Assembly (NCBI RefSeq): GCF_021864505.1
Contig: NZ_JAKJIB010000003.1
Coordinates: 1 to 56,488 of the forward strand
Direction: 5' to 3'
Length of the DNA stretch: 56,488 bases
Origin: Falsiroseomonas oryziterrae
GTDB taxonomy: Bacteria > Pseudomonadota > Alphaproteobacteria > Acetobacterales > Acetobacteraceae
The stretch's first letter is position 1, and each line of letters starts with the position of its first letter. Under the pieces are notes generated by a model. The model was not told where the DNA came from. It did not search any database and was given only the letters and a program-made list of their open reading frames with translations. Position numbers and translations under genes: made by a program. Positions 48,627 through 53,224 of the stretch are shown here, piece after piece.

Positions 48627-50441
48627 ATGGGCGACATCGCCGTGATGGCGGCCATCATCCTGGCCGCCATCGTCCTCTTCGTCTGGAACCGGATCCCGGT
48701 GATCGTCGTGGCGATGGGGGTCGGCCTGTCGCTCTACGTCACCGGTCTCCTCACGCTGAACCAGGCGCTCTCCGGCTTCGGGGACCCGGCGGTGATGTTC
48801 ATCGCCACGCTGTTCGTGGTCAGCGCGGCGCTCGACCGCACCGGCGTGACGGCCTGGGCAGGGCAGATGCTGATCCGCGGCGCCGGGGAAGACAGCCGCG
48901 CGCGCCTGATGGGACTCATCGCGCTGCTGGCGGCGGTTCTGACGGCGCTGATCAGCCTGAACGGCGCCATCGCCGCGTTGTTGCCGGTCGTGGTGGTCAT
49001 GGCGTTGCGGCTGCGCCGCCAGCCATCGCAGCTCCTGATGCCGATGGTCTTCGCGGCCCATGCCGGCTCGCTGCTCGCGCTGACGGGGACGCCGGTGAAC
49101 GTGCTGGTGAGCGAGGCTGCGGCCGATGCCGGCTTCCGCGCCATCGGCTTCTTCGAGTTCACCATCGTAGGCGTGCCGCTGGTGCTTGGCGTGATCGCCA
49201 TCAGCATCCTGCTTGGCGAGAGGCTGCTGCCCCACCGCGCGGGCGAGACGATGAGCGCGGATTTCAGTCGCCACGCCACGACGCTGGTCGAGCAGTACGG
49301 GCTCAAGCAAGGACTTTTCCGCCTCCGTCTCCGCGCCAGCTCGCCCCTGGTGGGCCAGCCGCCCTCCGCGCTCGAGGTCCATGACTGGGAGGGCCTTCGC
49401 CTTGTCGCGATCCATGACGGCGAGACCGGCGAGCGGCTGAAGCGGGATGCGATGCAGGAAGGCGACTTCCTGCTGGTCTCCGGCCAGGGCGAGGAAGCCG
49501 CGCGGCTTGCGTCGGCGCAGCATCTGGCTTTCCGGCTCGAGAACAGCGACGAGGACCTGCGCGACAGCCTGTTCAATCGCAGCTCCGGCCTGGCCGAGGT
49601 GATGATCCCGCCGCGCTCGGCGATGATCGGCCAGACGGCCTACCAGGGGATGGTCACGGACAGTGGCGACCTCGTCGTCATCGCGATCCAGCGCGGCGGC
49701 AGCGATGTCGGCGTCGAGCCGGTCCAGTTGCAGGCGGGCGACACGATGCTGCTGCAGGGCAGCTGGAAGGCGCTCGACGTCCGGCTCGCCGATCCGCAAG
49801 TGCTGGTGGTGAACTCGCCCGACCTGGTGCGCCGCCAAGCCGTGCCGCTGGGCGCCGGCGCCTGGACCGCCATCGGCGTGCTCGCCGCCATGGTGTTCTT
49901 CCTGGCGACCGGCCTGGTCCCGGCCGCGGTCGCCGGCATGCTCAGCTGCTTCGCCCTGGTGCTGTTGCGCGTGGTGACGATCGACCAGGCCTACCGCGCA
50001 GTGGACTGGACCACGGTCATCCTGGTCGCGGCGATGATGCCGCTCTCGACCGCGATGGTGCAGACTGGCGCGGCCGACATGATGGCAGACGGCCTCGTCG
50101 CCATGGCCGCGGGCGGCAGCCCCTATATCCTGCTCGCGGGTGTCTTCCTTCTCACGGCCGTCCTCGGCCAGCTGATCAGCAACACGGCCACGGCACTCAT
50201 CATCATCCCGGTCGGTGTCGCCGCGGCGACCACCATGGGCGTCTCGCCGCTGCCGGTGCTGATGACCATCGCGGTCGCAGCTGCGGCATCCTTCCTCACG
50301 CCGATCGCGACGCCGACCAACCTGATGGTCATGCGCCCCGGCGGCTACGAATTCGGCGACTACTGGAAGTTCGGCCTGCCGATGATGCTGTGGTTCCTCC
50401 TGGTTGCGGTCTTCATCGTGCCGCTCGTCTGGCGCTTCTGA
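48627..50441 (+). CDS. SLC13/DASS-like transporter with central TrkA-C domains
   Basis: The product has 604 residues. Hydrophobic halves flank two cytosolic RCK_C/TrkA-C domains (about residues 205-390; [24 protein letters not shown]-like turn [18 protein letters not shown]). Substrate-site motifs [14 protein letters not shown] and [18 protein letters not shown] mark the Na+/anion symporter fold (sulfate, di-carboxylates). It starts two bases after the AbgT stop. A hairpin follows the stop. Its 3' side abuts the broken ureC. Confidence 0.9.
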
Positions 50442-50482: not shown

Positions 50483-50524
50483 TCAGACGGTGAGAAGGCG
50501 CCGGACTGCCGCCTCGTACAGCGA
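50483..50524 (-). pseudogene. orphan C-terminal tail of an unknown gene
   Basis: On the minus strand 13 codons read [13 protein letters not shown] and stop, looking like the natural end of a helical protein. Upstream in this frame the sequence immediately becomes the out-of-frame ureC piece. It may be the remaining end of a gene joined to ureC by a deletion. Family unknown; weak evidence. Confidence 0.3.
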
Positions 50525-50528
50525 GTGG

Positions 50529-50702
50529 CTCGGCCAAGGCCACGTCCTCGGGGATGCGCGGGTCGAGGTGATGGCAGACCATCAGCATGTCGAGATGCTC
50601 GTCCACCGTGTTCCGCGTGTAGGGCATAGTCGGGTTGGTGGAGGAGGGCAGGAACTTCGGCTCGCCCACCATGCGCAGGATGTCGGGCGCATCGCCGCCA
50701 CC
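50529..50702 (-). pseudogene. ureC: urease alpha subunit (ureC), inverted internal fragment
   Basis: 58 codons on the minus strand read as the conserved middle of UreC. They run from [20 protein letters not shown] through [19 protein letters not shown] to [16 protein letters not shown]. Functional UreC (about 570 residues) continues with SRIRRET; here the frame is lost at that point. The fragment faces opposite to the urease accessory genes and to the ureC tail at 50752, so it was inverted as well as truncated. The metal-ligand region upstream is gone. It cannot be functional. Confidence 0.85.
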
Positions 50703-50751
50703 GGCGCTAGGACATCGCCGGCGTGGTCCGGCATCTCGCACGGGATCGCGG

Positions 50752-50823
50752 GATGACGGCGAGTTGCTGATCTGCGAGCCGGCCGAGGTCCTGCCGCCGG
50801 CACAACGCTACTTCCTGTTCTGA
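50752..50823 (+). pseudogene. ureC: urease alpha subunit (ureC), C-terminal remnant
   Basis: 23 codons read [23 protein letters not shown] and stop, the characteristic UreC C-terminus (family: ...CEPAxVLPMAQRYFLF; Met is Pro here). No start or upstream UreC sequence remains on this strand. It lies eight bases before the ureE ATG, which is the normal ureC-ureE junction and fixes the original orientation of the locus. Confidence 0.85.
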
Positions 50824-50831
50824 GGCTGGCG

Positions 50832-51397
50832 ATGGAAGAGACGTCCCGCGCGCGACCGTCGTCCAAGCCGCCGGGTCCTGGCCGGAGGCAGAGGCCCGCG
50901 ACAGCGTCACGCTCGACTTCGACGAGCGCTTCCGTCGGCGGCGGTTCTACACCGGTGAAGCGGGTCTTGCCTTCCTGCTCGACCTGCCCGAGGCGCAGCT
51001 GCTGAGGGATGGCGACGGGCTGCAGCTCGCCAGCGGCGGCTTCGTGCGCGTCCGCGCTGCACACGAGCAGCTCCTGGAGCTCACGGCGGCCAACCCGCAG
51101 CACTTGCTCCGTCTCGCCTGGCATCTCGGCAACCGGCACTTGCCTGCCGAGATCGGGGCGGGCCGCATCCTGATCCGGCACGACCACGTCATCATGCAGA
51201 TGCTACAGGGCCTCGGGGCGGCCCTGCGGGACATAGAAGCGCCCTTCAATCCGGAAGGCGGCGCCTACGGAGAGCACGATCGCGTGCCGGGCCACCCGCA
51301 CGGGCACCATCACGACCGACACGACCACGATCATCACCACGACCACGACCACGATCACGGCCACGCGCATTGTGACCACGACCACCACCATCACTGA
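50832..51397 (+). pseudogene. ureE: urease accessory protein ureE, frameshifted
   Basis: From about 50849 the frame reads as UreE: RATVVQAAGSWPEAEARDSV, LDFDERFRRRRFYTGEAGLA, GNRHLPAEIGAGRILIRHDH (nickel-site His). It ends with a His/Asp-rich metal-binding tail ([19 protein letters not shown]). The natural ATG at 50832 (MEETSRA) is out of frame by two bases. The sequence has four CG units at 50847-50854; three would restore the frame. No other start exists in the UreE frame before a GTG at 51044. UreE delivers nickel to urease. Confidence 0.8.
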
Positions 51398-51407
51398 CGG
51401 CGCGGCG

Positions 51408-52042
51408 ATGGCGCGACTGCTGGCGTGGCTGTCGCTGGTCTACCCCGTCGGCGCCTTCAGCTACAGCCACGCGCTGGAAGCGGCGGTGGAGGAAGGCGCG
51501 GTGACGCAGCGCTGCGCGGCGCAGGCGCGGTCGATGCATCGCTGCTGGCGCTGGCGTGGCGCGCGGCGGATGCCGGCGACGATGTGGCACTGGACGAGGT
51601 GACCGATCTTGCCGCGGTGTGGCGCGGCAAGGCGGAGTTGTCGCTCGAGGCGACGCAGCCCGGGACCGCCTTTGCGCAGGTCACCAACGCCGCCTGGCCG
51701 GAGCCGCGCTTTGCCGCCTATGCCGCGCGCCATTCTGGCCGGCTGACGCATGCCGTCGCGGTCGGCGCCGCAGCCGCCTTCCACGGGCTGCCGCTCCGCG
51801 CATCGTGCCTGGCTTGGCTGACCGCCTTCGCCGCCAACATCGTCTCGGCCGGCGTGCGGCTGGTGCCGCTTGGGCAGACCGACGGGCAGATCGCGACCGC
51901 GGCGCTGCTGCCGGCGATTGAGGCCGCGACCGATGCCGCGCTCGCCGTCACGGACGCCGACAGCATCGGCGCGAGCGCGATCGCCATCGACCTCTCCTCC
52001 ATGCGTCACGAGACGCAATACACAAGGCTGTTCCGATCATGA
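51408..52042 (+). pseudogene. ureF: urease accessory protein ureF, internal deletion and frameshift
   Basis: The N-terminal part in one frame reads [20 protein letters not shown] then [12 protein letters not shown]. The rest lies in the next frame, from [20 protein letters not shown] through [20 protein letters not shown] to [14 protein letters not shown], the exact family C-terminus. About a dozen residues (the usual helix before GAGRxDA) are missing near 51510-51525, so a small deletion broke the frame. Translation from 51408 stops at 51602. UreF normally forms the activation complex with UreD and UreG; no ureD is present. Confidence 0.82.
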
Positions 52043-52652
52043 GCAACGGACCCTTCCGGGTGGGCGTCGGCGGCCCCGTCGGCAGCAGCAAGACCGCGCT
52101 GGTCGATCGCCTCTGCAAGTTCCTGCGCGACGGCAACGAGGTCGCAGCGATCAGACCAAGGAAGACGCGGAGTTCCTGACGCGCTCCGGTGTCCTGGATC
52201 CCGACCGAATCATGGGCGTGGAGACCGGGGGCTGTCCGCATACTGCGATCCGCGAGGACGCCTCGATCAATCTCGCTGCGGTGGCTGAGATGACGGCACG
52301 CCATCCGCAACTTGAGATCCTCTTCATCGATTCCGGCGGCGACAATCTGGCCGCGACCTTCAGCCCGGAGCTCGCGGACCTCACGATCTACGTCATCGAC
52401 GTCAGCGCCGGCGACAAGATCCCGCGCAAGGGCGGGGCGGGCATGACGCGCAGCGATCTGCTCGTGATCAACAAGACCGACCTCGCGCCGCTCGTCGGGG
52501 CGGATCTCGCCGTGATGGACCGGCACGCGCGGCGGATGCGCGGCACGCGACCATTCATGTTCACCAACCTGAAGGAGAACCGGGGCGCGGCGGAAATCGC
52601 AGCCTTCATCCTGCAATCGGGCGGGGTTGTCGCGCGTGGCAGGGCAGCGTGA
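52039..52652 (+). pseudogene. ureG: urease accessory GTPase ureG, deletion frameshift
   Basis: The start overlaps the ureF stop. The P-loop region reads [20 protein letters not shown]; the invariant GSGKT is GSSKT. After EVAAI the family continues T-N-D-I-Y-T-K-E-D. Here two bases replace the five T-N-D-I-Y codons (net loss of 13 bases), and translation stops at 52177-52179. The remaining UreG is intact in another frame: [70 protein letters not shown], up to GVVARGRAA. The lost segment lines the GTPase active site. Confidence 0.85.
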
Positions 52653-53224
52653 TGAAGCGAATCCGTCCTGCTCTCATCGAGATCTTCGCACCGCTCCCGG
52701 CTCTCGCGCATCCCGGCGGGCTTGACGCGCATGGCGTCGCGGCCGGCTGCCTCCACCCGCTCGGCGGCTGGGACCACACTGCCGCCTTGCTGGCGGTGGG
52801 GCTGTTCGCAGGTCTTTCGGGTGGCCGAGCACGGTGGCTTCTACCGGCGGGCTTTCTTGCAGGAATAGCCCTGGGCGGACTGCTCGGCGTTGGGCAGGTA
52901 CCGTTCCCGGCCATCGAGGCGGCGATCCTCGCATCGATCATCGTGCTGGGCTCGCTCGTCGCAAGCGCCGTGCCGATGGCGCTCGGTCTCGCCGTGCCGC
53001 TCGTCACGGGCTTCGGGCTCGTGCATGGGCATGCGCATGGGATGGAAGCTTCGACTGGCGGGCTCAGCTTCGTCGTCGGCTTCGTGTTCTCCACGCTTCG
53101 GCTGCATGCGACCGGCCTTCTGCTCGCGGCGACGCCGCACCGGTGCAGGGCCGTGCGGCTTGCGGGCGACGGCGGTGCGATGCTCGCAAGCGTGATGGCC
53201 GTTCTGGCGCTGATGCCCCTGTAG
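52652..53224 (+). CDS. ureJ: HupE/UreJ-family nickel permease
   Basis: The product has 190 residues, normal for the family, with no lesion. A short N-terminal hydrophobic stretch ends ALAHPGG (mature N-terminus begins with His). The metal motif HPLGGWDHTAALLAVGL and the second His cluster LVHGHAHGM are present, with about six membrane segments. The ATG overlaps the ureG stop. It would bring in nickel or cobalt for urease or hydrogenase. Here it is the only open frame left of the urease cluster. The signal region (RIRPALIEIFAPLPALA) is less hydrophobic than usual, perhaps early decay. Confidence 0.8.
   Translation: MKRIRPALIEIFAPLPALAHPGGLDAHGVAAGCLHPLGGWDHTAALLAVGLFAGLSGGRARWLLPAGFLAGIALGGLLGVGQVPFPAIEAAILASIIVLGSLVASAVPMALGLAVPLVTGFGLVHGHAHGMEASTGGLSFVVGFVFSTLRLHATGLLLAATPHRCRAVRLAGDGGAMLASVMAVLALMPL

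Follow-up and report, generated by a model that had tools for sequence, protein, structure and literature searches.

Organization of the locus

The window, the whole stretch of 56,488 nucleotides of the Falsiroseomonas oryziterrae contig NZ_JAKJIB010000003.1 that was analysed, carries remnants of genes for urea use between a transporter gene and a block resembling xanthine dehydrogenase (XDH). Within about 340 bp, four short fragments of two genes, ureC and urtE, are packed together in mixed orientation, and they are followed by remnants of ureE, ureF, and ureG and by an open ureJ. The features are as follows:

48630 to 50441, plus strand: open gene for a CitMHS/SLC13-type transporter, which borders the scar; in four relatives, the closest homologues lie away from urease
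50483 to 50517, minus strand: 3′ end of urtE, the last ~12 codons and the stop, from alignment to relatives; orientation as expected beside a plus-strand ureC
50530 to 50707, minus strand: ureC core fragment of ~58 codons, aligned to 14 of 14 relatives; inverted relative to the ureC C-terminus
50709 to 50755, plus strand: internal urtE fragment, aligned to urtE in all 12 relatives whose fetched locus contains this gene; inverted against the ancestral orientation
50755 to 50823, plus strand: C-terminal codons and stop of ureC, from alignment to relatives; ancestral orientation
50831 to 51397, plus strand: ureE remnant, with UreE_N and UreE_C domains sharing one frame and no ATG, GTG, or TTG in that frame before 51044
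51400 to 52042, plus strand: ureF pseudogene, with a net 34-bp deletion near 51513
52039 to 52652, plus strand: ureG pseudogene, with a net 13-bp deletion near 52153; domain match CobW/HypB/UreG
52649 to 53224, plus strand: ureJ (HupE/UreJ family), an open reading frame of 191 aa with one in-frame 3-bp deletion

The draft assembly of the source genome comprises 735 contigs totalling 4.63 Mb, and its completeness is 97.68%. It was compared with 14 urease-bearing relatives of the same genus, of which 12 have urtE in the fetched locus. DNA matches are reported from 100 bases upward in the comparisons of scar loci and flank loci, from about 250 in those of cluster flanks, and from 300–400 in part of the flank-locus comparisons.

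Origin of the ureC and urtE fragments

The minus-strand ureC piece, which starts at 50529 or 50530 and ends at 50707, matches ureC of all 14 relatives at a DNA identity of 83.5–91.6%, a result that is unchanged on longer loci. Its translation, from GGGDAPD to VALAE, comprises 58 residues, and four residues that are invariant in the 14 relatives are altered in it, including the His of GGGHAPD, which we take to be a nickel ligand. Taken alone, the ureC scrap has no hit to any Pfam family. The match to the ureC C-terminus starts between 50748 and 50765, depending on which of the 14 loci is compared, and continues into ureE and further; its codons belong to the plus-strand open reading frame 50635–50823. 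In relative L062, 8 bp separate the ureC stop from the ureE start, and the spacing in the window is similar. The two pieces occupy opposite strands in the window, whereas in every one of the 14 relatives they lie on one strand. These alignments indicate that both scraps descend from ureC. The first-pass annotation had described a gutted ureC with one piece inverted, with 58 UreC core codons on the minus strand and, in conflicting orientation on the plus strand, the UreC C-terminus at its normal distance from ureE. It had proposed alignment of both pieces to UreC and comparison with the loci of urease-bearing relatives as checks, and on both this description holds.

The short tail abutting the inverted core, which ends in AVRRLLTV, had been taken for an unrelated C-terminus. 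This part of the earlier description is replaced by a different identity, since the tail corresponds to the C-terminus of UrtE, the ATPase of the urea ABC transporter: its alignment score summed over 12 relatives is 312, a value reached by none of 300 shuffles (maximum 254). Taken singly, the tail exceeds all 300 shuffles in only 4 of the 12 relatives. Its best alignment within urtE falls at the 3′ end in 10 relatives and elsewhere in 2; when whole loci are searched, 10 of the 12 likewise place this piece best, on the plus strand, at the urtE 3′ end. The second piece, 50709–50755 on the plus strand, aligns to urtE nucleotides 506–552 in all 12 relatives (506–545 in one), each alignment scoring above all 300 shuffles. 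The corresponding gene of relative L062 (16660–17352) is itself UrtE according to TIGR03410, with 337.7 bits against a cut-off of 285.8. On this basis, the scraps at 50483–50517 and 50709–50755 are assigned to urtE.

The ancestral urt–ure cluster and its flanks

In L062, read gene by gene, the urt genes diverge from ureD-A-B-C-E-F-G-J. UrtB, UrtD, and UrtE of this relative score above their NCBIfam cut-offs, and UrtA, UrtC, and ureA/B/D are named from gene order and from reading of the translations. An urt block precedes ureD in the loci of 12 of the 14 relatives; in L059 the contig ends before the place where the block would come. The urease cluster of L063 (G003 C5) has no urt match in the 20 kb fetched, unlike those of 12 other relatives. 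From ~50755 to ~53.1 kb, the window is colinear with the ureC end, ureE, ureF, ureG, and ureJ of the relatives, at ~70–76% identity over ~2.3 kb.

On the left, the block at 38.9–50.44 kb, which ends with the CitMHS/SLC13 gene, is syntenic in four relatives, in whose fetched 20 kb no match to urease occurs. The first-pass annotation had placed an SLC13 operon where ureA, ureB, and ureD once were. This view is not supported, because the left edge of the cluster survives as the urtE 3′ end (50483 to ~50517), ~42 bp from the end of the SLC13 gene, and the loss of ureD, ureA, and ureB falls inside the scar. Since its block is syntenic in relatives without a urease match there, the SLC13 gene lies beside the cluster, past the end of urtE, and does not replace ureDAB. 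On the right, the XDH-like block at 53.3–56.5 kb matches loci in three relatives, and these loci are without urease. The stretch downstream of the SLC13 gene in relatives has 6 matches in the source genome.

These flanks, which are unlike the urease flanks of the relatives, would fit the insertion, between the SLC13 gene and the XDH genes, of part of a urease cluster that came from beyond the genus or from elsewhere in the same genome. Such an origin is given only a slim chance: the urt–ure flanks differ between groups of the genus anyway, and the remnant retains its ~70–76% identity to the orthologues of the genus. Across the loci L060–L072, the urt–ure cluster is kept as a unit while the flanking DNA varies between species groups, a pattern that would suit movement of the unit within the genus. 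A block that follows ureJ in two relatives (G002 and G008) is found at 82% identity on another contig of the source genome (L112, G000 C57, 10–5347) and, from its open reading frames, appears to encode a peptide-type ABC transporter. A search of a plasmid collection returned 132 records at 60–80% identity, none of which covers 80% of the query.

Probable loss by inversion and deletion

Read from left to right, the scar consists of the urtE end (minus), the ureC core (minus), the urtE middle (plus), and the ureC end (plus). The outer two pieces keep the ancestral arrangement; the inner two are flipped and their order is swapped. Turning the inner two together restores both ancestral order and ancestral orientation, so that one inversion explains both flipped pieces. 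The 340-bp stretch is thus best read, with good confidence, as the scar left when a cluster for urea transport and urease was lost through one inversion together with deletions. The order and orientation of the four pieces agree with the earlier proposal that an inversion and deletions, beyond point decay, are needed here. The same proposal attributed the loss of urease to a local rearrangement; a rearrangement is indeed required, and its extent is wider than was recognised, as the urea transporter genes (urt) are gone too. Urea uptake and urease seem to have been lost together.

On the L062 map, ~105 bp are missing in urtE, 7,787 bp between urtE and the ureC core, and 637 bp within ureC; these sizes are set by the edges of local alignments and are good to several bases. 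The course of events may have been as follows. In the ancestor, urtE-D-C-B-A would have been encoded by the minus strand and ureD-A-B-C-E-F-G-J by the plus strand. Breaks close to the urtE 3′ end and within the latter half of ureC would have bounded an inversion that flipped the interval between them. A large deletion of ~7.8 kb would have removed most of urtE, urtD to urtA, ureD, ureA, ureB, and the 5′ half of ureC, and smaller deletions would have taken ~105 bp beside the break in urtE and ~637 bp beside that in ureC. Just as plausibly, the large deletion preceded the inversion, which would then have flipped only the short urtE–ureC joint. After the loss of the catalytic subunits, ureE, ureF, and ureG would have started to decay through small indels.

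The joints, read by eye, share at most ~six bases, which suggests end-joining without long repeats, or microhomology, as the mechanism. Inverted repeats were considered as a trigger: the longest words common to the break regions have 8–10 bases, lengths that fall in the range given by 40 shuffles for every one of the 12 relatives. Tight joints with at most ~six common bases and no longer repeat would also suit template switching during one break-repair event, which would have deleted the entire urea-use cluster and templated two short inverted patches, the ureC core and the urtE middle, into the gap. Such an event could form all joints at once, but both patches would have to land in exactly the order and the orientation expected from one inversion, and it is accordingly regarded as unlikely, though worth keeping in view. 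The likelihoods given to these explanations are not exclusive, because transfer or movement of a cluster piece fits either scar mechanism. One scan of 11 loci found no second genome with the scar among the matches listed.

Residual genes and capacity for urea use

Compared with the majority of the 14 relatives, the net deletions in ureF (34 bp) and ureG (13 bp) shift the frame; the 3-bp deletion in ureJ does not. The N-terminal end of ureE varies among the relatives too. For ureE, ureF, ureG, and ureJ, pN/pS between the window and the relatives is close to the values among relatives, and no in-frame stops occur in the codons compared, which exclude gapped codons, the first 8 and last 28 codons of ureE, and, in the other genes, the codon at either end. 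The evidence of decay in ureE, ureF, and ureG thus rests on indels. Long decay under relaxed selection was considered as well and is unsupported by the substitutions. With no in-frame stops and with pN/pS near the values of relatives, the loss of the urea-use cluster is probably recent. Two observations concern ureJ: it remains open (191 aa) despite the loss of its pathway, and it is the only gene that stands out in pN, since its median against relatives is 0.332 and no pair of relatives exceeds 0.314.

Profile searches gave 0 matches in the source genome to Urease_alpha (PF00449), UreD (PF01774), and Urease_beta (PF00699), and a second urease elsewhere in the genome was rejected on these results. 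In a DNA search with a relative's 20-kb locus, the only search that covers ureA, the ureD-A-B stretch has no match in the source genome among the 40 of 1300 candidates that were scored. In the same scope (40 of 1300 candidates scored), the urt stretch of that locus has short or low-identity matches only, as expected from other ABC transporters. The UrtB profile (TIGR03409) has 24 matches, none above its cut-off (best 189.1 bits, cut-off 250.3); among 14 control genomes, 11 give matches below or above the cut-off and 1 gives a match above it. A urea carboxylase in place of urease was also rejected, as the best match to TIGR02712 reaches 551.9 bits over positions 1–439 of 1201 against a cut-off of 1303.85; all 14 control genomes match this profile, 1 of them above the cut-off. 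No functional urease locus, with structural genes and ureD present and intact, was found. The organism is therefore expected from its genome to be urease-negative, although a draft cannot prove absence.

The state of these genes also bears on whether the scar could be an assembly chimera or a misassembly at the junctions. The genome is a draft in 735 contigs, and the SLC13 and XDH flanks match loci of relatives apart from urease, as a false join might produce. Against this, all four scraps stem from one cluster and lie in the order fitting one inversion; ureE, ureF, and ureG bear lesions of their own, whereas the neighbouring transporter genes and the gene for the XDH large subunit have open reading frames; and intact UreC, UreD, and UreB were not found elsewhere in the assembly. 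Because the pieces share one cluster in the order predicted by an inversion, and because of the lesions in ureE, ureF, and ureG, misassembly seems most unlikely.

Comparison with known systems

Urease_alpha was found by profile search in all 14 other genomes of the genus that were searched. Across the family, it is matched in 289 of 397 genomes at E 0.001 and in 268 of 397 above the cut-off, tallies that take in weak matches and maybe other amidohydrolases; with 268 of 397 above the cut-off, absence of urease is not rare in the family. For the former Roseomonas groups, the urease reaction is reported as positive or variable depending on the group (PMC8414978).

The locus is a pathway loss of a known kind and no new kind of system; its scar is unusually readable and well preserved. 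It offers a clean example of loss by rearrangement with the joints preserved, in a genus where 14 other genomes keep ureC, and the predicted phenotype is urease-negative. No such scar is described in the titles and abstract openings among the literature matches listed.

The closest reference is the urtABCDE and ureDABCEFGJ cluster of the genus relatives, which is the source of the four scraps and of the ureE to ureJ remnants; the window differs from it in having neither the structural genes nor the transporter and in carrying two of the scraps inverted. A second comparison is offered by Brucella ovis, in which urease is reported to be inactivated by a 30-bp in-frame deletion in ureC1 (PMC2677664). 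Both are alphaproteobacteria whose urease was lost by damage to ureC, but the lesion in B. ovis, as given there, is this small in-frame deletion, whereas the lesion here combines a multi-kilobase deletion with an inversion.
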